Of a stretch of DNA of 64,000 nt, positions 1 to 42,160 are shown one piece after another (the first letter of the stretch is position 1; the number at the start of each line of letters is the position of its first letter). The notes under the pieces are model-generated. The model ran no database searches. It saw nothing but the letters and a program-made list of their open reading frames with translations, and was not told the origin of the DNA. Source of the DNA: Pontiella desulfatans (GTDB taxonomy: Bacteria > Verrucomicrobiota > Kiritimatiellia > Kiritimatiellales > Pontiellaceae); NCBI RefSeq assembly GCF_900890425.1, contig NZ_CAAHFG010000003.1, forward strand, positions 1-64,000. The letters run 5' to 3'. The position numbers and the translations under genes were made by a program.

Positions 1-72
1 TGCGCTTAACCCCGATTTTCGGACCACCGGCTTAAGTGGAACCTGCGTCCTCAACATGGTACAAAAGGACGC

Positions 73-357
73 ATGGAAATGGGAAGAAAACGAAGAACAT
101 TCACGGACAAGTTCAAGGCCAAGGTGGCGATTGAGGCCATCAAGGGCGTGAAGACATTGGCGGAGCTGGCATCGGAATATCAGGTCCATCCGAACCAGAT
201 TTCGGATTGGAAGAAGCAGTTGCTTTCGAATGCGCCGGATCTTTTTGCATCGGGGAAAAAGAAGCAGGCTCAAACGGAAGAAGAGCTTACGGCTCCACTT
301 TACGAAGAGATCGGGCGTCTGAAGATGGACGTGAAGTGGCTCGAAAAAAAGCTATGA
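73..357 (+). CDS. IS3-family transposase OrfA (HTH protein)
   Basis: A 94-residue protein of the IS3 OrfA type. It opens with the basic stretch MGRKRRTFTDKFK followed by a helix-turn-helix (roughly residues 15-45, including TLAELASEYQVHPNQISDWK) that would bind the IS ends. The C-terminal half is charged and could form the leucine-zipper-like helix used for multimerisation. Near its end the gene has a run of seven A residues (344-350) followed by G, a classic slippery site for -1 frameshifting into orfB, so a fused OrfAB transposase is expected as well as OrfA alone. Confidence 0.93.
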   Translation: MEMGRKRRTFTDKFKAKVAIEAIKGVKTLAELASEYQVHPNQISDWKKQLLSNAPDLFASGKKKQAQTEEELTAPLYEEIGRLKMDVKWLEKKL

Positions 358-1199
358 GCCTGCCGCTTTCAACGCGCCGCAGCTGGGTGGAGCCCGGCAC
401 CGATTATTCGGTTCGGCGGCAGTGTAGGCTCGCAGGCGTCCCCAGATCGGGCTTCTACTACGACCCCGCCCCGGAAACGCCGGAGAACCTGCTTCTGATG
501 CGTTTGATCGACGAGCAGTATCTCCGGCATCCGGAGTTCGGCTATCCACGCATGACGGACTGGTTGCGTGATCAAGACTATGATGTCAATCACAAGCGGG
601 TCGCCCGCCTCATGCAGCTGATGGGGATTCAGGCCATCACGCCCGGTCCGCACACGAGCAAGCCCGCCCCGAGGCACAAGATCTACCCTTATTTGCTGCG
701 CAATGTGGACATCGAACGGGTGAACCAGGTTTGGAGTACGGACATCACCTACATCCCGATGCGGCATGGATACATGTACCTGACCGCCGTAATCGACTGG
801 TACAGCCGCTATGTGCTCGCCTGGGAGCTCTCAAGCACCATGGAGAGCACGTTCTGCGTTGATGCGCTGGAGCGTGCGCTGACGCAGGGGAATCCGGAGA
901 TATTCAACACCGACCAAGGAAGCCAGTTCACCTCGAACGCCTTCACCGGTGTCCTGTTAAACGAGAACATCACCATCAGCATGGACGGGCGAGGCCGGGC
1001 GTTGGACAACGTATTCATCGAACGACTGTGGTGGTCGGTGAAGTATGAGAAAATCTATCCCGCATGCTATGCCGACGGGCATGCGTTGCATCGGGGCCTT
1101 GACAGCTATTTTAAATATTACAACCACGAGAGGAAGCACAGCGCTCTGGACAAACGCACCCCCGCCGAGGTATTCATGGAAGGAGCAGTCAGAACATGA
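354..1199 (+). CDS. IS3-family transposase OrfB (DDE integrase domain)
   Basis: 281 residues from the ATG at 354, whose ATGA overlaps the orfA stop. The frame is also open upstream to 207, which lets the -1 frameshift at the A7 run produce the OrfAB fusion. An N-terminal HTH_21-like region (HPEFGYPRMTDWL) precedes the rve integrase core. The three catalytic acidic residues are visible in WSTDITYIP, NTDQGSQFTS and DNVFIERLWW. It is full length with no internal stop, so this copy looks active. An identical protein is encoded at 37201-38046 on the minus strand. Confidence 0.93.
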   Translation: MSLPLSTRRSWVEPGTDYSVRRQCRLAGVPRSGFYYDPAPETPENLLLMRLIDEQYLRHPEFGYPRMTDWLRDQDYDVNHKRVARLMQLMGIQAITPGPHTSKPAPRHKIYPYLLRNVDIERVNQVWSTDITYIPMRHGYMYLTAVIDWYSRYVLAWELSSTMESTFCVDALERALTQGNPEIFNTDQGSQFTSNAFTGVLLNENITISMDGRGRALDNVFIERLWWSVKYEKIYPACYADGHALHRGLDSYFKYYNHERKHSALDKRTPAEVFMEGAVRT

Positions 1200-1394
1200 T
1201 CGCAAGTGATGCCGTCGCTGCGCTCCGCCCTCGGCCCTCCGGGCCGCCCCTTCGGGGACGGGCTCCGCTCCGCGACGGCATCATGGAAGGGCGGCTCGTT
1301 GGCCGCCAGAACACGGAACAGGGAACCGCAGGTTCCACCTTAAGTTCACCGATCCGTGGTTTAAGATTGGGGGTAGGCGCACATCGAGTTTCTC

Positions 1395-1970
1395 ATGAGT
1401 CGTGAAAATCAGGTTTCTTTTCAGGATCTATTTATTACGGCTGATAAAATCCTCGGTCGTATCGGTGAAATTCAAGAAACAGACGAATTCATGGAGCTTA
1501 AGTCCAGATATCAGGAATCCTGTCATCGGGGATTTGATTTTTCAGATGTAATTCGCGACGGAATGTTACTTGGGCTCACAGTGTCTAAGCGATGGGGATC
1601 TAGGTTTGATGATTATGAGATGCATCATGCAAGTGTTTTGGCACGGGCCTGGAGTAATATTTCTAGCATCGGAAATTTTCATACCTATACCTTTGAAGTT
1701 GTGAGCCAAATCATACTTGATTATATGAGCATGGACACTAGCTCTATGTGCCAAGAAATAATGGCACAGTCGAAAGAGGAAGTGTGCCGAACGGGCGGCT
1801 CGCATTTGGATTTTTTGTATGACGCTGTCATCGCCTCATTTATCAATGACCCGCAGGATCTCACCTTAGAGAAACTTGAGGAAGGTCGGTATTTTGAGCG
1901 AGCCGCGGAGCAAGCTAGGACCCGTTTCACCGAGATGTATCCGGAACTCACCTGCGAGCAGGCTGCATAG
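1395..1970 (+). CDS. Hypothetical protein, first gene of a mobile-element operon
   Basis: A 191-residue, mostly helical, acidic protein that I do not recognise. It begins only 13 bp after the right end of the IS3 copy, so the original promoter and possibly the true 5' end may have been lost; transcription could now come from the IS. It has no signal peptide or membrane segment. It is followed 11 bp later by 1982-3028 and then 3028-3990 in the same direction, forming a tight three-gene operon. Its base composition is more AT-rich than the sulfatase regions, in keeping with a transferred element. No function is proposed. Confidence 0.6.
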   Translation: MSRENQVSFQDLFITADKILGRIGEIQETDEFMELKSRYQESCHRGFDFSDVIRDGMLLGLTVSKRWGSRFDDYEMHHASVLARAWSNISSIGNFHTYTFEVVSQIILDYMSMDTSSMCQEIMAQSKEEVCRTGGSHLDFLYDAVIASFINDPQDLTLEKLEEGRYFERAAEQARTRFTEMYPELTCEQAA

Positions 1971-1981
1971 TCGGGGTTGAT

Positions 1982-3028
1982 TTGAAAAAGGTAATTCAAT
2001 TAATGGGGGCGGCTTTGCCGCCCTATTTCAACCCGCCGGTGGAGAGCCTTATTAAGTGGATCATAGATCTGCTTAAACGTGGCGAAATATTAATGATCGT
2101 CGCGTCGGAGTATGTCCCTGTTTCCGTTCGGGTGATTGGGGCGCAGTTAGCCGTGGATCTTTCATCACTTGGGTTGAAGGTTGAGTTTCTCAACTATGAC
2201 GCACCAAAAGTTCGTCAGGATATTTTCCGGGCGGAGGAAAGTGCCAAGGCGTTGCTTTCAGAGCAGGGGACGAAACATCCCCTAAGCTTCGGTTGCCAGC
2301 CTTTAGGTGAACTGCATGTGGTTGAGTATCTTCCCTTTTATGGTCTAACAGATACGGCGTCACATATCCGTGAGAATAGTAAGGGTGCTGATGTAATTAT
2401 TATCAATGCCCTGCCGAGAATGGTCGGGGATATCCATGTACGTAAGGAGTCTCTTAGCTGGGTTCGAAAGAAACTCGGCCTAGCAGCTCGGGCTTCTGAC
2501 GTTGCCATCATTCTGCTGAACCATACCCGGGAATCCCTATTGGAGAAGCCTCCTACGTTTCGGCCGGAAATAAATCACGCGAAGGGTATGAAACACGTTA
2601 CCCATACGGTAGATCATGCCCTGTTCATCGGAAACGGGGATAAGCGGGATACCGGAGACGCTACTGTATGCCCGACAGCCGGTGACGTTATGCAGTCCCG
2701 TGATTTTGTCACCAAATTAGTGGATGAATGCCTGATGATCGGCGGGGACGGGGGCGGGGATGAAAAAGTCTGCTGGATCGCGAATCCAAAATCCAATCAT
2801 CGAGAGTTGGCGTGGCTTGATGGGGCCAACGGCAGGTTCCGGAGTTTGGGAAGGCCGGGAGAGTTTTTTGACGTAGATATGGACCTTGGGAAATTTGTGC
2901 TGAGCGCAGAGGCTGAGTCGTTGGGGTTGCGGAGCGCCCCCGATGTCGCGGGGTATCTTCAGGCTGGATTTGCGCTCGGACAGGAGCCTGCTGTTCAGCC
3001 TGAACTTCCGGACGTGGAGGTGGTGTGA
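1982..3028 (+). CDS. RecA/RepA-fold-like protein with degenerate P-loop
   Basis: 348 residues if the TTG at 1982 is used; an ATG at 2003 is an alternative. I do not recognise it with confidence. The order of secondary-structure cues recalls DnaB/RepA-type ATPases: a hydrophobic strand and turn (ILMIVASEYVPVSVRVIG) where Walker A should be, a helix, then GLKVEFLNYD; a Walker-B-like ADVIIINALPR; and later VAIILLNHTRES, which resembles the sensor strand of RecA-fold helicases. The GK[ST] of Walker A is absent, so ATP hydrolysis is doubtful. It lies in a compact operon beside replication- and recombination-like genes, suggesting a DNA-metabolism role for the element. This is inference from shape, not a proven family. 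Confidence 0.5.
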   Translation: MKKVIQLMGAALPPYFNPPVESLIKWIIDLLKRGEILMIVASEYVPVSVRVIGAQLAVDLSSLGLKVEFLNYDAPKVRQDIFRAEESAKALLSEQGTKHPLSFGCQPLGELHVVEYLPFYGLTDTASHIRENSKGADVIIINALPRMVGDIHVRKESLSWVRKKLGLAARASDVAIILLNHTRESLLEKPPTFRPEINHAKGMKHVTHTVDHALFIGNGDKRDTGDATVCPTAGDVMQSRDFVTKLVDECLMIGGDGGGDEKVCWIANPKSNHRELAWLDGANGRFRSLGRPGEFFDVDMDLGKFVLSAEAESLGLRSAPDVAGYLQAGFALGQEPAVQPELPDVEVV

Positions 3029-3990
3029 TGAGTGGTGTACTTTTTTTCTCGGGAGCAAACTGCCTCCCGGTTGTCAGCAAAGCCGGGGATCAGGAGCAGC
3101 TGTTGCGTGCCGCCGGCCAACTGGTGAGTTCAATGACACCTCGGCAGGGTCTTGTTCTTGTCGCGTTATTCTGTCGTGGTTCGTCGGCAGATATTAAGTC
3201 AACATTGATTAGGTTGTGTCTGTTTTTCAGGGCTTATGGTCGCAGGGATATACTCGATTTACTTTCATCCGATCCGATAGCTAAAGCAGGTGAAGTCGTA
3301 TCGCTTGTCAGTGAGCATGAGATGCTGGATCTGTATAATAAGCTGACGGGCATCGAGCCTGATGCCGAAGAGCTGAAAGCCGAGACAAAGATGTTGGACT
3401 GCCTCTTGGAAGGCGATCCGTGCATGAAATTAATTACTCACTTCAAGGCCGATCTCGCCATCCGGTTAAAAGAGCTGTTTGTTGTTCATCGCACCCGTGT
3501 CGGTGATGCCGCGGCCATACGTGCCGATAACCGGTGTATGGTCTCTGCGCCGCAATACGATGATACGCGTTACAAACCCAGGCATTGGCAGTCTGTTGTC
3601 GAAGACTTTGCCCTGAATGGGATTTATCCGCCGGCCTTTCTCAAAGAATGGGGGCGGCTTTATCAAAGCGTGCCGTGGCCGGAGTCGTGCCGGAACTTGT
3701 TTGAAGGTTACGAGTCGCCCAGGGGCCGGGAGCCGGTTCGGCACCGGTCAGTTGACCGGATCCTGATCGAACTGTTGGAGGGGGAACTCAGATCGGCAGA
3801 CACCGCGAGGTTGGCACTCAACGCATCGGCGCTGAGTGTGCAGGGATTGTATATTCCGCGTTGCCTATGGGGTGAGCTGGCCTGGTCCTTACTCGACCGG
3901 TATAGGCGAACTACGGGGCTCATAAGCGATCTCAGATCGTTTGATGCCAGGATGAGTATGTCCATTCCCGAAGCCGAAGTCCTAGTTTAA
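3028..3990 (+). CDS. Hypothetical protein, third gene of the operon
   Basis: 320 residues from the ATG at 3028, which overlaps the preceding stop codon (TGATG), indicating translational coupling; a GTG at 3025 is an alternative start. It is cytoplasmic, with no signal peptide. The N-terminal part (SGVLFFSGANCLPVVSK) and a later PRQGLVLVALFCRG stretch are hydrophobic strands; the rest is helical and contains several Trp-Gly pairs. I do not recognise the family. Its stop codon overlaps the stop of the convergent gene at 3987-5078 by four bases, so no separate terminator lies between them. Confidence 0.6.
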   Translation: MSGVLFFSGANCLPVVSKAGDQEQLLRAAGQLVSSMTPRQGLVLVALFCRGSSADIKSTLIRLCLFFRAYGRRDILDLLSSDPIAKAGEVVSLVSEHEMLDLYNKLTGIEPDAEELKAETKMLDCLLEGDPCMKLITHFKADLAIRLKELFVVHRTRVGDAAAIRADNRCMVSAPQYDDTRYKPRHWQSVVEDFALNGIYPPAFLKEWGRLYQSVPWPESCRNLFEGYESPRGREPVRHRSVDRILIELLEGELRSADTARLALNASALSVQGLYIPRCLWGELAWSLLDRYRRTTGLISDLRSFDARMSMSIPEAEVLV

Positions 3991-5078
3991 AAACCGTGCC
4001 CGACCGCTCTATCGCGGCTTCCTGCCGCCAGGGTGGTCAGGGCATCCGCCACAAAGTGGGGGTCGTGGTAGAGCGACAGCATCCAGAACGGGAACTCCGC
4101 AAACGTTCTGAAGGCATCACACAGCCCCGCCTTGGTCGGAGGAAATTTTAGCCATGGGCCTTCCGACATGAAGGTTGTGGGGAAGTCGGAGGTTTTGGGG
4201 AATGCTTCCTCTGGTGACTGCAGCTTTTCCCCTCCCTCAGCAAGGGCGATAACAGTGGTGCGCCATACCAAGTTATATTTATCGTCGCTGTCTTTATCAT
4301 AGTTGGCTGTCCGAACCCTGTACGGCAGCGTTATTACATAATCTTTCAGCCAGCCCTTGTTCCTGCCCTTGCAGGCGCTCTTAACCGCCTTCTCATACAT
4401 AGCCGGATCACTGTTTACATCGAAGGTGCGTCGGTCGCACGGCGTGGAGAAGTGCGTCACACAGACCTGCATATCTTTCTTCAGTTCAGCGACGATCTCA
4501 GTGAACATGTAGTGGATTTTTTCGTAGCGGCACCACGGGCATAATCGGTACTGCCCACAGGAATACTGCTGGCTAAGGTTGTTGCCCACGCCCTGGTTCG
4601 GTGTGCAGAAAAACATACGTTTAAGAAGTCGGAGGCTTTGGATGAGTGTGTCATCAGGAATACGGCTTGCAGGAAGCTCCATGGCAACCTCATCGTCTTC
4701 GAAAGGGTAGGGTATCAAGGGGGTATGACTTCTGTCTTTGAGAAGATTATATAAGCTGGAGGCATTGGCCCGGTATCGTCGGGAAATATAGGCCACCCGA
4801 CGCGCTGCTTTGTAGATGTTGGATTTGGGGTCATTTGTTTTTATATCAACCATCTGGTGAACCCAGCTGTTTGTGTCCTTCAACTCGCTCTTGAAAGCAT
4901 CCAGCTTGCTCACATGACCGTAAACAGCGTCATGGATATACCGGTTGTGGAGGTACTCGGTTCCGTCCTTTCCCTTTCGGTTATCATAGATTACGCCGGT
5001 AATCTTCAGCGGGTTACTCGGTCCCCAGGCTTTAACAATATATTTTGGAACGCTGTGCAAAAAACTCCCCCCAATCAA
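3987..5078 (-). CDS. Putative replication-associated protein with CPxC zinc-knuckle motif
   Basis: About 363 residues. The start is uncertain: the longest frame uses a TTG at 5078 and no good ribosome site is visible. The most telling part is mid-protein, CGQYRLCPWCRYEK, followed by a helix and then a strand (MQVCVTHFSTP). Rolling-circle Rep proteins of small plasmids carry a comparable 'CG...LCPxC..RR' knuckle ahead of their HUH strand. I do not see a clear HUH pair or catalytic tyrosine, so the assignment is tentative. Immediately upstream (5085-5234) is a large nested hairpin flanked by direct repeats, the kind of structure expected at an origin. The gene converges on 3028-3990. Confidence 0.5.
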   Translation of the reverse strand: MIGGSFLHSVPKYIVKAWGPSNPLKITGVIYDNRKGKDGTEYLHNRYIHDAVYGHVSKLDAFKSELKDTNSWVHQMVDIKTNDPKSNIYKAARRVAYISRRYRANASSLYNLLKDRSHTPLIPYPFEDDEVAMELPASRIPDDTLIQSLRLLKRMFFCTPNQGVGNNLSQQYSCGQYRLCPWCRYEKIHYMFTEIVAELKKDMQVCVTHFSTPCDRRTFDVNSDPAMYEKAVKSACKGRNKGWLKDYVITLPYRVRTANYDKDSDDKYNLVWRTTVIALAEGGEKLQSPEEAFPKTSDFPTTFMSEGPWLKFPPTKAGLCDAFRTFAEFPFWMLSLYHDPHFVADALTTLAAGSRDRAVGHGF

Positions 5079-5276
5079 AAATGACGATAACTCGCATATA
5101 CCTTATCTAAAGATAAGCGGATTCCTTTTTCTTTTTTTACCCTCTGGTCGGCGCGAGCCGGAAGCGCAAAACCTCCAGGAGGGTAAAAAAAGAAAAAAGT
5201 AACCACATTGTATAATGGTATATGCGAGTTATCGGCAAAAGTGAAATCCATTTTATTTTGGAACACTGTACCAAAA
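5043..5276. repeat. Nested inverted repeat flanked by direct repeats; origin-like
   Basis: An outer perfect 18-bp inverted repeat (5085-5102 and 5217-5234, CGATAACTCGCATATACC and its complement) encloses an inner pair, about 5124-5144 and 5180-5200, in which CTTTTTTTACCCTC faces GAGGGTAAAAAAAG. The loop holds a GC-rich core. Outside this lies a direct repeat: TTTTGGAACGCTGT at 5043 and TTTTGGAACACTGT at 5256, the latter also part of an inverted repeat TTTTGG-N9-CCAAAA. The whole unit abuts the start of the Rep-like gene. It could be a replication origin, a MITE-like insertion or a strong transcription barrier. Confidence 0.7.
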
Positions 5277-5365
5277 TTTTGAAGCGCTGGAAGGATTTGT
5301 ATTTCCTCCGTCATCATGGGTGGGGCTCATAAATGGCCGGTATTTCGCCGTATAGACCGTGATAT

Positions 5366-5398
5366 AACCCTGAAAACCCTGAAAATCATGAAAAATGG
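5366..5398. repeat. Iteron-like short direct repeats
   Basis: Three consecutive units of the form CCTGAAAA, CCTGAAAA and CATGAAAA occur in AACCCTGAAAACCCTG and the bases after it. They lie in the AT-rich leader before the gene at 5528, upstream of a TAATAT-like -10 candidate near 5430. Such arrays can be regulator or initiator binding sites; there is no direct evidence for either. Confidence 0.4.
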
Positions 5399-5464
5399 TT
5401 AAAATGATCATAAAAGATGTAATAATATAGTAGAGAGGAGAAGGATTGGTTCCGTAACCCCTCT

Positions 5465-5500
5465 GACAGGCCCTTCAGCTGATGCTGTCGGGCCTTTTTC
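5465..5500 (+). terminator. Terminator or attenuator hairpin in the leader of 5528
   Basis: GACAGGCCC, a loop, then GGGCCTTTTTC forms a GC stem followed by a T run. It stands between a plausible promoter and the gene at 5528, so besides ending upstream transcription it could act as an attenuator. Only the hairpin is seen directly. Confidence 0.6.
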
Positions 5501-5527
5501 GTGTTAACACTAAATATGGAGATCACC

Positions 5528-5965
5528 ATGACTAAGATTACAGGAAGCTATTCTAAGAAGCTCCCGACAGAGGCACGGTTCAGTTCTGAATCTGTATTCT
5601 GCAGCATCGAAAAAGAGATCGGATCTGATGCTACGGCATCTGAGATCCAGCGGGCTATTGCCGAAACATTTGAATTGGTTCGTGATAGCGTCGAGTCAGA
5701 ACTAACCATTGGCCGGGGTGCCCAGCGACCACGTCGCCGGGAGGAACGCCCGCATGATCGTCGTGACCATGATAACGGCCGCGGTACCGATCAACGCTGT
5801 ACTAATCGCCAGGTTCAATTCATCCTTCGCTTAGGACAGGAACAGAACCTCGGCCTTCCTGAATTAAACCGCAAGGTTGCCGAACTCTACGAGGCCGGTA
5901 ACGTGTATGACCTCAGTAAGCGCGATGCAAGCGCCTTCGTTGATGTGTTGAAGGCCGCCGCTTAG
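5528..5965 (+). CDS. Phage/plasmid recombination-type small protein
   Basis: 145 residues from the ATG at 5528, chosen because GGAG lies 7 bases upstream; an in-frame start at 5501 has no such site. The N-terminal 60 residues are helical. A basic, low-complexity linker (RPRRREERPHDRRDHD) follows. The C-terminal 50 residues (NRQVQFILRLGQEQNLGLPE to KRDASAFVDVLK) match a short helical module that I know from the ends of phage and plasmid recombination and replication proteins, of the 'ASEKQLxxIxxLxxExGL...LSKxEASxLIDxLK' type. The next gene is a RecB-like nuclease, so the two may act together in DNA processing for the element. The exact function is inferred. Confidence 0.6.
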   Translation: MTKITGSYSKKLPTEARFSSESVFCSIEKEIGSDATASEIQRAIAETFELVRDSVESELTIGRGAQRPRRREERPHDRRDHDNGRGTDQRCTNRQVQFILRLGQEQNLGLPELNRKVAELYEAGNVYDLSKRDASAFVDVLKAAA

Positions 5966-5992
5966 CCCAGGTCACTACCAACCCCGAATCAA

Positions 5993-6025
5993 GCCCCGTC
6001 GTCCACTGTGGATGGCGGGGTTTTT
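5993..6025 (+). terminator. Rho-independent terminator
   Basis: CCCCG and CGGGG form the base of a hairpin with an inner TCCA/TGGA stem, followed by TTTTT. It lies between the gene at 5528 and the nuclease gene at 6053, so the two are probably separately transcribed or attenuated. Confidence 0.75.
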
Positions 6026-6052
6026 ATGTGTAACCCAAGGAGAAAATGAACC

Positions 6053-6516
6053 ATGACACAGTCATTAAGCCAACTGCGGCAGCGTCCGCACCTTTCGAAC
6101 AGTCAGATAAATCAAATTCTGAATTTATGTAGCTTGCAATTCTATTATGAGCGGGTTGCTAAGCTACCAAAGCCATTCGTATCTAACTCGCTAGTGTTCG
6201 GTACCTGTGTGCACAAGGTGTTGGAGCACTACTATCAGTGGATCCAGCGCGGTGAACAGCCTGATGTCGATTCTCATATCGAAATGTTCTCAGAACTCTG
6301 GAAAAAAGCTAACAACGAACAAAATATCAAGTTCGGTGCGAAGACTAGTTTCGAGTCACTGGCGGATACCGGCCGGAATGTGGTGAAGTGCTTTATCGAT
6401 AATGCCGATCCCAAGGAAAAGGTGTTGTCGGTATCGCAGGCGTTCTGTGTGCCGGTGCATGCCCCGGATGGATCCGTGGTAGAGCTCCCGCTCGTGGGTG
6501 AATTCGACTTGGTTGT
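6053..6516 (+). pseudogene. RecB-like PD-(D/E)XK nuclease, 3' end lost to IS21
   Basis: The N-terminal ~155 residues of a Cas4/RecB-type PD-(D/E)XK exonuclease. Visible are the opening LSNSQINQILNLCSLQFYYERV, the helix FGTCVHKVLEHYYQ typical of this superfamily, and GEFDLVV with the first catalytic acidic residue. The EXK half that should follow is missing because the IS21-family element begins here; the frame runs 16 bp into the IS and stops. The start at 6053 is preceded by AAGGAG. As it stands the product lacks its active site and should be inactive. The rest of the gene is not found on the other side of the IS. Confidence 0.8.
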
Positions 6517-6610
6517 TGTAAACGCCGGTTGAAAAGTGCACCGGGCGGCGGCCCAAAAGTGTAACACTTTTTCGTTAATTACCCCGCTTCCTTGCGGGTG
6601 TCAATTGCTC

Positions 6611-7393
6611 CTACGGTTTCTTTGTTTTCTGCCGCTGTCCCCGGCGGCGCAATGAGTCCTGCAACCTGAAGCTTTCACCATTGGCCTCGAGGATATGGAC
6701 CCGGTGGGTCAGGCGGTCGAGCAAGGCTCCGGTAAGCCGCTGGGAGCCCAGCACCTCCGTCCATGATTCGAAGGGCAGGTTCGTGGTCACCACGAGGCTG
6801 GTGCGTTCGTAGGCCCGGCTGACGACTTCGAAAAGCAGTTCAGCCCCCAGCTTGGAGAACGGAACGTAGCCGAGTTCATCGAGAACGAGCAGGTCGGAGC
6901 GCTCGAGTTGCTTGAAGAACCGGTCAAGCTGCCTTTCCTCCCGGCGTTCGAGCAACTGCGTGACCAGGGCGGTGACGCCGAAGAACCGCACCTTGAAGCC
7001 CATCTGGCAGGCGGCGAACGCCAAGGCGGTGGCGAGGTGGGTTTTTCCGGTTCCGCTGTTGCCGATCAGCAATACGTTCTCCCGCTCCTTGATAAACTCG
7101 CCGTGGGCAAGCTCCCGCACTAGCGGCTGGTTGATCGATGGCTGCTCCTCGAACCGGAAGCTATCGAGGGTTTTCACGACGGGGAAACGGGCGGACTTGA
7201 GCCGGCGTTCGGCGGCCCGTTGTTCCCGGTCATGAATCTCCTGTTCGATGAGCCGCAGCAGGTAGGTCGAGTAGTCGGCCCCTTCGGCCTGGCAGACCGA
7301 GGCCATCTTGCGGTGCTCCCGCAGGATACTCGGCAGCTTGAGCGTTTTGAGGTAGTGCTCCAGCAGTACGTGTGACGAGGTCTGTGCACTCAT
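6611..7393 (-). CDS. istB: IS21-family helper ATPase IstB
   Basis: 260 residues from the ATG at 7393, which overlaps the istA stop (ATGA). This is the AAA+ helper that assembles on target DNA and stimulates the IstA transposase. The Walker A is GNSGTGKTHLA, the Walker B is LLVLDELGY, and the sensor region LVVTTNLPFESWTEVLG follows, all as in IstB/DnaC-like proteins. The length is normal. The tail is basic (RRRGQRQKTKKP). A longer in-frame extension upstream overlaps istA and is not needed. Confidence 0.95.
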   Translation of the reverse strand: MSAQTSSHVLLEHYLKTLKLPSILREHRKMASVCQAEGADYSTYLLRLIEQEIHDREQRAAERRLKSARFPVVKTLDSFRFEEQPSINQPLVRELAHGEFIKERENVLLIGNSGTGKTHLATALAFAACQMGFKVRFFGVTALVTQLLERREERQLDRFFKQLERSDLLVLDELGYVPFSKLGAELLFEVVSRAYERTSLVVTTNLPFESWTEVLGSQRLTGALLDRLTHRVHILEANGESFRLQDSLRRRGQRQKTKKP

Positions 7394-8892
7394 GCGCCCA
7401 CCTCCTGTCCGAGCAGGCGATTGTAATCGGCCACATCTGCGCTGGCGACCTGCACGTGGCGTAGATGCTCGTGTCCATCCAGGTTGAACCGGGTGCATCG
7501 CCATTCCGGCCGGGGAATGAGGAACTGGGCAATGGCGTCTCGGGAGGAGGCCCCGCAACGCAGCCCCTGCTCAACGGCCCGGGCCAGTTCCTTGGGTGAA
7601 TGCTTTTCGAGCAGACGCAGCACCTTGATGTACTCCCGGGTTCCTTCGCCATCGAGATCGGCCTCCAGCCTGCTGCGCAGATCCCGAAAGCAGGATGGCA
7701 GTTTCCAGTCTTCCAATGGCCGGGCGTGGTCGAGCCCGCCGGGCTTGCGTTCGAGCAGTGCGAGATAGTGCACGGGGTTGAAATGGACGCCGGCCTTGCC
7801 CCACAACCGGGGATGTTCGGCGATGCATTCATCGCCCCGGCAGACCACAATCCGGTCGATATAGCCCTTGACCACCGTTTCGTAGTGGGCGTAGCGCACG
7901 GGCACCGAATAATCGTTGCCGTCGAAACGCACGAGCGACAAGGAGCTGGCGGTGCAGGTTCGCACCCGGCAGGACTCGAACGGCACGACCGGCAGATCAA
8001 TAAAACGGCCACGCTCATCGGCCAGCAACTGCCCCTTCGTTCCGTCCTTGCCCCGCAGTTTACGCCCAAGCTCCTCCCGGCAACGCTCTTCAAGCATGCG
8101 GTTGAGCTCATCAAAGCTACGAACCTCCGGCACCGGAACCATGAAGTTGGAACGAGTATAGCGCACCATCGATTCGACCACGCCCTTTTCGTTACCTCGG
8201 GCCACGTTGCAGAAGTGTTCCTTGAACAGATAGTGGCTCTGGAGCTGGAGGAACCCGTCGGTGAGCTTGCGTTGGTGGCGCTTCATCACCTTGGCCACCA
8301 TCACCCGCTCGTTGTCGTAGCTGATACGGCAGGGTACGCCATCGAAAAAGGTGAAGGCCCTCACATGCCCATCCCAGAAAACCTCCGTGCAGATCTTTTC
8401 GTAGGCCTGCACATAAACCGCATCCGAATACGGCAGGCTCATCACAAAAAATGCGACCTTCCGAAGCTGGCCGTTTATTTTAGCGAGGGCATAGCCGAAA
8501 TCCATCTGCGCCTCTCCGGGCCGATGGGCCAGCGGAATGTAGACATCCTTCAGACGCACCCGGGCGTTGCGCACGGCATCTTTCACCTGCGTATACCCGC
8601 CGGTGTATCCTTCCTCTTTCAGGCGATCAAAAATCCGCTTGGCCGTATGCCGTTGCTTTTTTGGCAACTCCCGGTCCTGCCGGAGAATCTCGTCGATCCG
8701 ACCGAGAAACGGCCCGATCATGGGCTTCGGCCTCGGCTGGGCCATCCGGTATCCCGGAGGCTTGGGGTGCGCCAGAATCTTCTCCAGCGTCTTGGTGTGA
8801 ATCCTGTACTCGGCCTTAACCTGTCGCTTGCTGACGCCTTCAACAAGCACCTTTCGTCTGATATCGGTCCACCATTGCATGTCTATGTACAC
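7390..8892 (-). CDS. istA: IS21-family transposase IstA
   Basis: 500 residues, full length. The N-terminus has the helix-turn-helix expected of IstA (EGVSKRQVKAEYRIHTKTL), followed by an rve integrase core whose first catalytic Asp is in MDFGYALAKINGQ, with later acidic residues in CRISYDNERVMV and NEKGVVESMVRYTR, and a Mu-transposase-like C-terminal region. It is intact and transcribed away from the HEAT-protein side towards istB, so the element looks competent to move. Confidence 0.94.
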   Translation of the reverse strand: MYIDMQWWTDIRRKVLVEGVSKRQVKAEYRIHTKTLEKILAHPKPPGYRMAQPRPKPMIGPFLGRIDEILRQDRELPKKQRHTAKRIFDRLKEEGYTGGYTQVKDAVRNARVRLKDVYIPLAHRPGEAQMDFGYALAKINGQLRKVAFFVMSLPYSDAVYVQAYEKICTEVFWDGHVRAFTFFDGVPCRISYDNERVMVAKVMKRHQRKLTDGFLQLQSHYLFKEHFCNVARGNEKGVVESMVRYTRSNFMVPVPEVRSFDELNRMLEERCREELGRKLRGKDGTKGQLLADERGRFIDLPVVPFESCRVRTCTASSLSLVRFDGNDYSVPVRYAHYETVVKGYIDRIVVCRGDECIAEHPRLWGKAGVHFNPVHYLALLERKPGGLDHARPLEDWKLPSCFRDLRSRLEADLDGEGTREYIKVLRLLEKHSPKELARAVEQGLRCGASSRDAIAQFLIPRPEWRCTRFNLDGHEHLRHVQVASADVADYNRLLGQEVGA

Positions 8893-9021
8893 TCCTTTAC
8901 CTCCCGGTTCCGAAACGGTTAGGCAACCACGTTGCCCGATCCGTCCGGAAATCCGGAAGTTTTAGTTGGAGTGTTACACTTTTAGACCGCCCCGCCGCCC
9001 GGTGCACTTTTCAACCGGCGT

Positions 9022-9669
9022 TTACAGGTTGGTTTCAAACAGCGCGGCGGTGAGTGTCGCCTCGCGCTTGCCGGTTTCCTGGCTGCGTTGTTTGGCCAGC
9101 GCTTTGATGCTTCCTTTCGTTCCGATTATAGAGAGCGCCTTTGCCGCTGCGGCGAAGATGTCCGGATCGTTGCTTTTCAGGTGGGGCGTGATCGACTTTT
9201 CCGCTTTTGCATCGCCGCGTTCACCGAGGGCCATAATCAGACCGGCGGTCCAGCGAGGATCGTTCGCGGTTTTCAGTTCAGCCAGTAAAGCCTTCCCGGC
9301 GTCCGGTGCGGGATTCACGGCCAGTGCCTTGCGGACTGCATCGCGCAGATGCGGGTCGGAACTTCGAAGCATTGGAACCAGTGTTGCGATGGATTCCTCG
9401 CCGCCGATGCGCTGAAGCGCGTGCGCCAGGGCGATTGCGGCAGGAGCCGCTATGCCTGTGTTGAGTTCGGCGCAAATGTCTTCGCATAGGGCTTTGCGTT
9501 CGGCTTCGGCGCCCGGGCGTCCGGCGGTGGAGCAGGCGGCCAGCAGGTCCAGGCGCGCCTGCGTCTGGATGTTTAGGTCGGCTGCGGTGAGTCGGGGGAG
9601 AATCTCCTGAATCGCGGCCTGAGAAGCGGATGCGAACAGGAGGGTGGTCAGTAATAATTTCTTGAGCAT
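9022..9669 (-). pseudogene. Secreted HEAT-repeat protein, 3' end truncated by IS21
   Basis: The remaining 215 residues start with a signal peptide (MLKKLLLTTLLFASASQA) and continue with alpha-helical HEAT-like repeats, e.g. RIGGEESIATLVPMLRSSDP and LKSNDPDIFAAAAKALSIIG. The stop codon lies inside the IS end, so the natural C-terminus is lost. In planctomycetes and their relatives such HEAT domains commonly accompany secreted dehydrogenases and hydrolases. It starts 17 bp after the oxidoreductase gene 9687-11003 and is probably cotranscribed with it. The start (ATG, complement of 9667-9669) fits the signal peptide. Confidence 0.75.
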
Positions 9670-40144: not shown

Positions 40145-41452
40145 CTATACCGCTTTCGTCATAGGAATGATCTTGGCCTCTTTTGCGGGTGCGATCTTGA
40201 AATACTCCCTGGCTTGATTCTTTCGGTTTTTCGCTAAGCCGCGGTAATGCTTAAACAGCATCTTGGTATCAGTGTGTCCCAACTCCTGAATCGTGTCGTC
40301 CATGGAGTTCAGTGCAAGATAGTAAGTCGCGAAAGAGTGCCTAGCTCCATCCTGGATGTATTTAACATCGAGATCCTTGAATATGGCGCGTCTCCAACTG
40401 CGAAGCACAGTATCGGAATAGGGGAAGACCAGTGCGTCGTCATCACCTCGGTATGGAATTAACCATTTCTTTAGATTGGCTGAGATATGAACAATGCGGG
40501 CCGTCGAGGTTTTTGAGGTGTCCGCATTTACATGGATCTCATCCAACTGTAGATCGATATCCTTCCATCTCAGTCGAGTGATTTCGTTGGGGCGTATACC
40601 CGCAAAGAAGGCTAGAGCCATATATGGAATCAGGGTTGTCTTATCGGGCACGACCATTTTCCCTTCGAGCTTCACTTTTCTAATGCGCACCTTCTTGCCG
40701 TTTCCGTCTGTGCCAGGCTCGGTAATGAATGCAGTGCAGGCCCCAAAAATAGTCTTTACGTCCTTCGTGCTGTAAATTTCGGGGGTGTGAGTTACTTTCT
40801 TAATCTTTCTAGTGCGCAGAACCGGGTTTGCGGTGATCTTGCCTTGATCCAGGCACCAGTTAAAGAAGCCGCTGATATAGCGACGGTGATTATCTCGGCT
40901 GGTAGCTCCGAAATTTTGATTATCAAGCCATGTGTCGATATCAGTTGCGCTAATGGTGTCAATGGCTAGATGTCCCTCTGAACCTCCATATTTGCTAAGG
41001 TGCTGGACACACTCTTTATAGGATCTCTCTCGGAGTTCACCGATATTCTTACGCTGCTCTTGGGCTTCGAGGTACTGCCGTAAAAGCTCTCCAGTTCCAT
41101 TGGTGTGATCGACGACCTGATTGTGCTTTGCATAGAAGTTGGCCGCCTGTTTCAGGTTGATCCCATAGGGTCCCAGGATCTCTAGGGCGGTGACAGCATC
41201 GTTTCGTTGTTTGTCGGTAAATCCAAGAATCTTAACGCCGTGGTTCTTTTTTTCGTTGCTCTTTTCAAAAGCACATTTTCGGGCTGCCTTGAGCGTTTCA
41301 AAAGACAGGCGGATGTGTTTGCCGGTGGAGCGGCCAAGGTCGACTTGGTATCTTTTTCCGGCTTTGGAGGTCAGTTGTCTAATGCGATAGCCGGCATGGA
41401 GTTCAAAACCGTCGTCTTTAATGTTGGGCTTGTTGTTGTTGTTGTTGTTCAT
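40145..41452 (-). CDS. Tyrosine-type integrase of an integrative element
   Basis: 435 residues. An N-terminal arm-binding and SAM-like domain (AIDTISATDIDTWLDNQNFG) is followed by the catalytic domain: FFAGIRPNEITRLRWKDIDL carries the first Arg, DGARHSFATYY the second conserved box, and LGHTDTKMLFKHYRGL the His and the nucleophilic Tyr. The family's usual first His of HxxR seems replaced, which is tolerated in some integrases. It ends 3 bp after fic, convergently, and its 5' side faces the tRNA-Arg fragment at 41589-41640, the expected layout for integrase next to its attachment site. Confidence 0.9.
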   Translation of the reverse strand: MNNNNNNKPNIKDDGFELHAGYRIRQLTSKAGKRYQVDLGRSTGKHIRLSFETLKAARKCAFEKSNEKKNHGVKILGFTDKQRNDAVTALEILGPYGINLKQAANFYAKHNQVVDHTNGTGELLRQYLEAQEQRKNIGELRERSYKECVQHLSKYGGSEGHLAIDTISATDIDTWLDNQNFGATSRDNHRRYISGFFNWCLDQGKITANPVLRTRKIKKVTHTPEIYSTKDVKTIFGACTAFITEPGTDGNGKKVRIRKVKLEGKMVVPDKTTLIPYMALAFFAGIRPNEITRLRWKDIDLQLDEIHVNADTSKTSTARIVHISANLKKWLIPYRGDDDALVFPYSDTVLRSWRRAIFKDLDVKYIQDGARHSFATYYLALNSMDDTIQELGHTDTKMLFKHYRGLAKNRKNQAREYFKIAPAKEAKIIPMTKAV

Positions 41453-41588
41453 GATAAGGACTCCTGAAAAGTCCGACTACCGTACAGGGGTATCAGGTGG
41501 TAATCAAGGTTGGTTGCATAATGGTTGCATTATTGGCTATTGGTAAATCTGTAAGTAACGTATTTAGAACAGTGTTCCAAAAGTACGA

Positions 41589-41640
41589 ATGCTGACTACG
41601 AATCAGGAGGTTTCAGGTTCGACTCCTGATGGCTGCGCCA
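41589..41640 (+). other. 3' fragment of tRNA-Arg(ACG); probable attachment site
   Basis: CTGA-CTACGAA-TCAG is an anticodon arm with anticodon ACG, followed by a T arm (TCAGG-TTCGACT-CCTGA), an acceptor strand and CCA. The 5' half of a tRNA (acceptor GCAGCCA-like strand, D arm) is not present upstream. Integrases of this type commonly use tRNA 3' ends, and one is encoded 137 bp away, so this is most likely one end (att) of the integrated element. The second copy is not in the window. Confidence 0.75.
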
Positions 41641-41647
41641 CTTTTTT

Positions 41648-41678
41648 GGCCGTATTTCCTAGTGAATACGGCCTTTTA
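41648..41678 (+). terminator. Rho-independent terminator
   Basis: GGCCGTATT, an 8-base loop and AATACGGCC, then TTTTA, directly after the tRNA fragment; probably the original terminator of the tRNA gene. Confidence 0.85.
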
Positions 41679-42160
41679 TTGTTTTTTGGCACATTTCCCA
41701 AAGGCGTGATAGCGCATGATAAATGGGGATAAAGAAAGCCAATTTGCCAAACATTTGACAAACATTTTTCTGGCAGTGGCTTCTAATGACGGTGGGGGAT
41801 GGATCTGAAGCGAGCTTGTGAAGCGAGACTGTTGCCTGCAGGCAGCCCTTGTGGTGGATTCCACGAATCCATCAATACCACTTTTCCCATGCTCTGGAAT
41901 TCTGCTGATCTTGCTGCTTAGGTTTAGTGACAGTTTAGGAGCACCCCCTAAATCTGCCCACCACCATTTCCATTTTCTATATCCCGGCCGATTCCCCTCC
42001 GTCAACCCGGAAGCCCCGTGTAACTCTATGAAGAGTCTGTCTGTCGTGGGGCATGTGTAAGTTGTCCGTATTCAATTGGTTATCTAGAGCAAGAGGCGTT
42101 TCCCCCACGACCCCCACGAAGGGTTGGTGAAATTGAATTTTTCACACACATAGTTCAAAG
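41679..42160. other. Intergenic, no convincing gene
   Basis: About 480 bp with no reading frame resembling a protein. CATTTGACAAACATTTTTCT near 41752 is a local repeat of ACATTTG. The stretch ends at the 8-bp target duplication of the IS1595 element. Confidence 0.5.

Follow-up and report, generated by a model that had tools for sequence, protein, structure and literature searches.

The Rep_1 family (PF01446) includes the initiators of pC194 and pUB110 (PMC5714925). RepL, the protein encoded beside the hairpin described here, resembles these initiators in having a C..CP.C Cys knuckle ahead of the first core strand, in the match of one paralogue to the family (E 5.9e-5) and in the order of secondary-structure elements in its model. 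It differs from them in that its H-x-H and catalytic Tyr are not conserved, its match lies below the gathering score, and it is carried on chromosomal elements rather than on small plasmids. SV40 T antigen and papillomavirus E1 have origin-binding domains with a related fold and paired inverted sites. T antigen and E1 are without endonuclease activity and AAV Rep has it (PMC4944284); the comparison also draws on published work on pMV158 RepB and AAV Rep (PMC3375335). By analogy, the mode of action proposed for RepL, that of an origin-binding domain without nicking, would resemble that of T antigen and E1; RepL is, however, bacterial and without a fused SF3 helicase, and its binding is a proposal.

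Dispersed palindromes associated with an HUH-type gene are known from REP/RAYT (REPIN) systems, in which REPs are reported usually to exceed 100 per genome (PMC2817692). The present locus is similar in that its palindromes are concentrated in genomes with an HUH-like gene, some of them adjoining that gene. The dyads described below, however, amount to 11-16 copies, none lies near RepL in the genome G033, and RepL lacks the H-x-H and Tyr of a Y1 HUH transposase. The carrier of the locus is comparable with tRNA-targeted integrative elements, since PF00589 integrases lie beside tRNA genes; the likeness extends to gene order through genes that appear to be RadC- and ArdC-like. Unlike in such elements, no attR was found within about 58 kb beyond the RepL region of the fuller copy on contig C1. 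Limited term searches of open-licence PMC papers returned no earlier description of this system, which does not establish its absence from print.

A nested hairpin in an integrative-element remnant

The window, that is, the whole stretch of DNA analysed, comprises the first 64 kb of contig C3 in the 8.66-Mb genome of Pontiella desulfatans (G000, 6 contigs). Its relevant features are the following:

73-1199 (+): IS3-type insertion sequence genes (OrfA HTH_Tnp_1, 73-357; OrfB rve, 207-1199), left edge of the remnant
1385-6532 (+): integrative-element remnant, 5.1 kb, homologous to G000:C1
1982-3028 (+): ORF fused from two paralogous genes by a deletion at ~2650
3025-3990 (+): partner gene, 321 aa, tail-to-tail with RepL
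3987-5060 (-): RepL, HUH-Rep-like, 363 aa, four-Cys knuckle (C..C..CPWC)
5043-5063: dyad 1, TTTTGGAACGCTGTGCAAAAA, near-palindrome overlapping the RepL start
5082-5102 and 5217-5237: arms of the outer stem, 21 nt, 95% complementary, 18-bp perfect core
5085-5102 (-): box arm A, GGTATATGCGAGTTATCG, containing the conserved GAGTTATCG
5102-5117 (-): small hairpin A, CTTATCTTTAGATAAG, occupying the same position as the 12-bp hairpins upstream of RepL at other loci
5119-5144 and 5179-5204: left and right arms of the inner stem, 26 nt, 88% complementary
5217-5234 (+): box arm B, same as arm A, inverted orientation
5256-5276: dyad 2, TTTTGGAACACTGTACCAAAA, near-palindrome
5366-5394 (+): weak 9-bp tandem repeat, 3.2 copies, 90% matches, score 44
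5501-5965 (+): 154-aa gene, kept in related elements
6053-6532 (+): truncated PD-(D/E)XK exonuclease gene, 159 aa compared with 280 aa in the C1 copy
6533-8930 (-): IS21-type element cutting the exonuclease gene (IstB ~6611-7393, transposase 7390-8892; outer boundary approximate)

The two stems form a nested hairpin of 156 nt (5082-5237) between the RepL gene (3987-5060, minus strand) and the 154-aa gene (5501-5965). The 18-bp core GGTATATGCGAGTTATCG is identical in both outer arms; the short stretches between the core and the inner stem differ. Both arm pairs are the most complementary among the 11 inverted repeats listed for the 64-kb window (at least 18 nt, arms within 200 nt). The plus strand of the region folds as DNA at -50.8 kcal/mol, compared with -21.3 ± 3.3 in 200 shuffles (z -9.0), the minus strand folds as RNA with z -8.6, and none of the shuffles folds as well as the hairpin region. 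Arm complementarity and folding thus confirm the large nested hairpin of the preliminary description, whose 18-bp perfect outer repeat is present in both arms and whose inner pair, given there as about 20 bp, was recovered as 26 nt with 88% complementarity. Whole-genome matches at E <= 0.001 are confined to two element copies, in the window and on contig C1, so that the hairpin does not recur as a MITE; the flanking palindromes do recur, as dispersed repeats. When positions 1-9500 were searched with Rfam, the hairpin region matched just two families, both below threshold (Phe_leader, E 0.83; MS2, E 0.17), and these matches were set aside as chance. At the gathering threshold, Rfam returned tRNAs only across eight loci.

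The second hairpin copy, located at 3.748 Mb on contig C1, is 100% identical over 261 bp, and the RepL protein is likewise 100% identical. The window and C1 copies agree at 100% over 1385-2651 and at 99.4% over 2650-6518, with 25 differences between 6191 and 6509 and 0 over 2650-6190. The window copy lacks, at 2650, about 1.5 kb that is present on C1, and the N-terminal half of C1's DnaB/AAA_25-like ATPase is lost there. The C1 copy starts with a tyrosine integrase (PF00589) adjoining a tRNA gene, the integrase being missing from the window remnant, and continues with the DnaB_C/AAA_25-like ATPase, RepL, the 154-aa gene and the PD-(D/E)XK exonuclease. Judged from their sequence, it presumably also carries RadC-, ArdC- and recombinase-trio-like genes; the labels RadC, ArdC, RIT and HerA/TraD are tentative throughout. 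Since the window copy is bounded by IS3 and IS21 elements, has an exonuclease of 159 instead of 280 aa and has lost the N-terminal half of the ATPase, it is a decayed remnant, less complete than the C1 copy. The earlier suggestion of an element caught in the chromosome is borne out by this second copy with its integrase beside a tRNA gene. A PF00589 integrase and a tRNA gene lie within ~200 bp of each other in the C1 copy, in G016 C125 (slightly below the Pfam cut-off) and in G033. No 15-nt repeat of the tRNA/integrase junction that could mark attL and attR was found in 100 kb of C1, reaching ~58 kb beyond the RepL region.

Related elements on contig C5 share all or part of the block of 154-aa, exonuclease, RadC and ArdC genes. 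In one of them (L083 and L052, G000:C5 91301-107400), sub-threshold PriCT_2/VapE-like matches were observed in the gene that replaces the DnaB-like ATPase and RepL. A three-recombinase (RIT-like) insertion is present near the junction of ArdC and a 103-aa gene in L046, L049, L052 and the C1 copy (L007), and the RIT-like insertions of these related elements show 99-100% protein identity. PADLOC returned nothing for RepL or its partner and a weak match of the DnaB-like ATPase to mad8. The 321-aa partner may be related to the partners (205-250 aa) found at other RepL loci, with which it aligns weakly (hhalign probability 8, P 0.004). Additionally, a terminator-like hairpin followed by TTTTTCGTGT lies just before the 154/174-aa gene in the window (5460-5510) and in G033 (L026 ~1725-1760); recognised by eye and missed by the terminator scan, it is a possible attenuator.

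The RepL family and its seemingly lost catalytic residues

RepL probably starts at a TTG at 5060, after GGGGGGAG, within the listed open reading frame, which begins at 5078. Searches recovered homologues from 3 of 146 relatives; a four-row profile detected them in 4 of the 345 genomes of the class and a six-row profile in 4 of the 387 of the phylum, the query genomes being counted in each case. The eight loci comprise seven distinct sequences: two loci in G000, three in G016, one each in G033 and G018, and a frameshifted remnant in G125. RepL represents a small family in Kiritimatiellae. No relatives were detected at E 0.01 in 72,556 plasmid and 50,697 phage records, and nothing convincing was returned from IMG/VR, PDB sequences, PHROGs or NCBIfam. 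Four Cys are invariant in all six members aligned without a break, and the Rep_1-type knuckle C..CP.C before motif 1 is present in the family. The G033 protein is ~25% identical to that of the window. Two G016 copies are 53% identical, with dN 0.41 against a nearly saturated dS of 2.2, from which the protein appears to be constrained. In G125 (L027, C90, 833-1380), the frameshifted remnant is fused to a sulfatase-like reading frame.

The window RepL has no Pfam match at E <= 1. The G016 C141 paralogue, the one member of the six-row set that does, matches PF01446 Rep_1 with E 5.9e-5 and 23.1 bits, compared with a gathering score of 33.2. When aligned by hhalign with a set of seven plasmid Reps, C141 reached a probability of 88, the six-row profile, which includes C141, 68, and the four-row profile without it 25. 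An AlphaFold2 model of a G016 RepL (pLDDT 72.9, pTM 0.75) was compared with known structures by VIA-align, in which HUH initiators fill the six top rows; their Z scores of 5.4-7.0 stay under 8, the tool's threshold for caution. The top row is SIRV1 ORF119 (2x3g), an HUH Rep (Z 7.0, 113 aligned of 116), and further rows include pMV158 RepB (Z 5.4-5.7) and circovirus Rep (5.4); the best non-HUH row is a permuted ribosomal S6 with Z 5.1. Of 579 viral-library matches, 3 had E <= 0.001 (best 2e-5, no names attached), and a Foldseek search against the PDB returned nothing at E <= 0.001. A first AlphaFold model, with the window RepL as query, was not used alone, as its pLDDT was 44 and 2x3g (Z 7.3) tied with ribosomal S6-like folds. 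The structure-based search for an HUH fold that had been suggested at the outset therefore gave a partial answer: on the model, the fold is supported but not proven.

Examination of the catalytic positions indicates that RepL seems to have lost its DNA-cutting residues. H-x-H is absent from the expected motif-2 strand in six of seven members, the seventh being the frameshifted G125 remnant, and is absent anywhere in the sequence in five of seven. In G018 it occurs only within the Cys/His knuckle. In the alignment with plasmid Reps, C141 has a serine and a valine at the positions of the two HUH histidines. A Tyr in the motif-3 helix is present in two of four members of the A5 alignment, both from G016, and is missing in the window RepL and G033; no catalytic motif-3 tyrosine is conserved across the family. 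An HWH close to the motif-2 strand in the G125 remnant hints at a trace of a once active HUH and hence at an ancestor that may have been active. The preliminary reading of the CPxC protein as a Rep finds support in the HUH-like model and in a remote sequence relationship to rolling-circle Reps, but not in the catalytic residues, which are unconserved.

A conserved hairpin-and-box unit and dispersed palindromes

Upstream of RepL, a unit is found in which no more than 12 nt separate a 7-12 bp hairpin from a GA[G/C]TTA[T/G]CG box downstream of it. It precedes RepL at five of the eight loci (window, C1, G016 C125, G016 C133 and G033), which are all the RepL genes with a free upstream intergenic region. 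The unit is absent at C141, G018 and G125; in C141 and G018 the upstream gene overlaps or adjoins the RepL start. In 1.09 Mb, representing both strands of 34 sources, some of them overlapping, a hairpin precedes 6 of 14 GA[GC]TTA[TG]CG sites compared with 107 of 20,000 random positions, a count that is partly circular because the box was derived from those very loci. The sixth hairpin-and-box site lies in G016 C33, without RepL. A MAFFT alignment of the small hairpins was structurally inconsistent. The large nested hairpin is absent in relatives, which have only the small unit in common. The wide region 5' of RepL in these relatives is modestly structured (lowest z -5.7 in C125, -4.0 in G033 and -3.1 in C133; 60 shuffles each), which indicates that the giant hairpin is specific to the window/C1 element. 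The window has two such units facing in opposite directions, and the large hairpin is this inverted pair. The box is kept in G033, which has no dyads near RepL.

A related arrangement was observed in G016:C137 (L061 7100-7860): the small hairpin there is the exact junction between two RepL-upstream halves placed head-to-head, and no RepL gene is present. These chimera halves are RepL-distal, 93% identical to C33 and 76% to C125; in the window, two RepL-proximal halves are joined head-to-head. From the C137 fusion and the doubled window unit, it seems that the RepL family has undergone inverted joining centred on a hairpin on at least two occasions. It is quite improbable, but conceivable, that RepL and its tail-to-tail partner form a two-gene module which, by means of a relocated active site, cleaves and rejoins DNA at the small hairpin, with C137 and the window as two complementary palindromic products of one reaction.

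The hairpin is flanked by TTTTGGAACGCTGTGCAAAAA and TTTTGGAACACTGTACCAAAA, which belong to a 28-nt direct repeat with 82% identity. The direct repeats reported earlier are present, but the first TTTTGGAAC repeat overlaps the probable RepL start codon and is therefore not upstream of the gene. Likewise, a tandem repeat does exist at 5366, where iteron-like repeats had been described, but it is weak (3.2 copies, score 44). The dyad TTTGGAACNNNGTTCCAAA, allowing at most 1 mismatch, has 11 sites in this genome, 16 in G016, one each in G018, G005 and G003, and none in the remaining 23 of the 28 genomes of the genus; the reversed pattern, used as a control, has 0 sites. Most dyad sites fall between genes, often as pairs separated by 44-234 bp, and several lie directly after stop codons; some fall in related elements. 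RepL-family genes are present in G000, G016 and G018, and searches covering the dyad-bearing G005 and G003 found none in these two. The TTTTGGAAC repeats are dispersed palindromes of mainly two genomes, not origin iterons. As 23 of 28 genomes have no dyad, the idea of a host-wide palindrome of the genus was rejected, and a role as promoter operator is unsupported because several dyads sit right after stop codons.

Elsewhere in the window, at 40145-41700, a second tyrosine integrase (PF00589, E 1.7e-12) is accompanied by a dyad at 41563-41581 beside a possible tRNA 3' fragment; this identity was assigned by eye, and ARAGORN called no tRNA in the window. The same arrangement with a homologous gene occurs near 299542 on G000:C4.

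Proposed role of RepL and alternative explanations

The reading that is tentatively favoured, as a possible one, is that RepL is a nuclease-less HUH-like protein that would bind an origin or operator at the hairpin/box region of an integrated element. Since RepL seems to have lost its DNA-cutting residues, the hairpin is probably a RepL binding site and not a working nick-type origin. RepL may have descended from a Rep_1-like rolling-circle initiator with an HUH fold, losing its nuclease residues and keeping a DNA-binding role. Its likely site would be the short hairpin with GA[G/C]TTA[T/G]CG directly 5' of its own gene, and the inverted pairing of this unit in the present element would have given rise to the 156-nt nested hairpin. 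The hairpin region would then act as a cis-acting RepL site within the part of a tRNA-integrated element that serves replication and recombination. RepL could bind the paired boxes and help to open or extrude the palindrome, acting as a non-nicking origin-binding factor, as a repressor of its own gene, or as both. In proposing this, we infer binding, melting and a replication role for RepL. Replication-type genes are found nearby, namely the DnaB_C/AAA_25 ATPase in the C1 copy and the PriCT_2/VapE-like matches in the corresponding region of the C5 element. The helicase gene does not adjoin RepL in G016 or G033, so helicase loading is not a conserved feature.

A functional rolling-circle or transfer origin nicked by RepL would account for the remote Rep_1 similarity, a family to which the pC194 and pUB110 Reps belong (PMC5714925), as well as for the HUH-like model and the hairpin adjoining the gene. 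It is nevertheless very unlikely, given that H-x-H occurs nowhere in five of seven members and otherwise only in the knuckle of one and as HWH near the strand of one broken remnant, that the motif-3 helix has no invariant Tyr, and that RepL relatives are absent from the 72,556 plasmid and 50,697 phage records searched at E 0.01. The origin initially proposed is thus probably wrong as a functional rolling-circle origin, with H-x-H missing from the motif-2 strand in six of seven members, no conserved motif-3 Tyr and a big hairpin that relatives lack. In the window copy, the exonuclease gene cut by IS21 and the DnaB-like helicase gene without its N-terminal half also speak against a functional origin of this kind.

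A purely regulatory role has more in its favour, yet it is still somewhat unlikely. Here, hairpin and box would be an operator, or a transcribed leader or attenuator, of RepL and the divergent 154-aa/exonuclease operon, with no part in replication. This would fit the unit's position ahead of the RepL start wherever the two occur together (five loci), the location of the hairpin region between divergent genes and its strong fold as RNA (z -8.6). On the other hand, no sigma-70-type promoter above chance and no terminator were found, such promoters being possibly inapplicable here, the Rfam matches were two and below threshold (E 0.17 and 0.83), and the box pair is symmetric while RepL lies on one side only. 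Finally, the dyads could constitute a REP/MITE-like palindrome family, with the hairpin as an inert inverted duplication between two of them. The dyad counts given above (11 and 16 sites in two genomes, one each in three others, none in 23 of 28, none for the reversed control), the mostly intergenic and often paired sites (44-234 bp apart) and the similar inverted fusion at a small hairpin without RepL in G016 C137 are consistent with this possibility. It remains unlikely, however, as the hairpin is confined to two element copies and the box is conserved in G033, where no dyads lie near RepL.

If the favoured reading of RepL as a non-nicking binding protein is right, it would represent a bacterial rolling-circle initiator without nuclease, retained as an origin or operator binder in parallel to T antigen and E1. 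The finding also offers a way into one set of integrative elements from the Kiritimatiellae, which have received little study.
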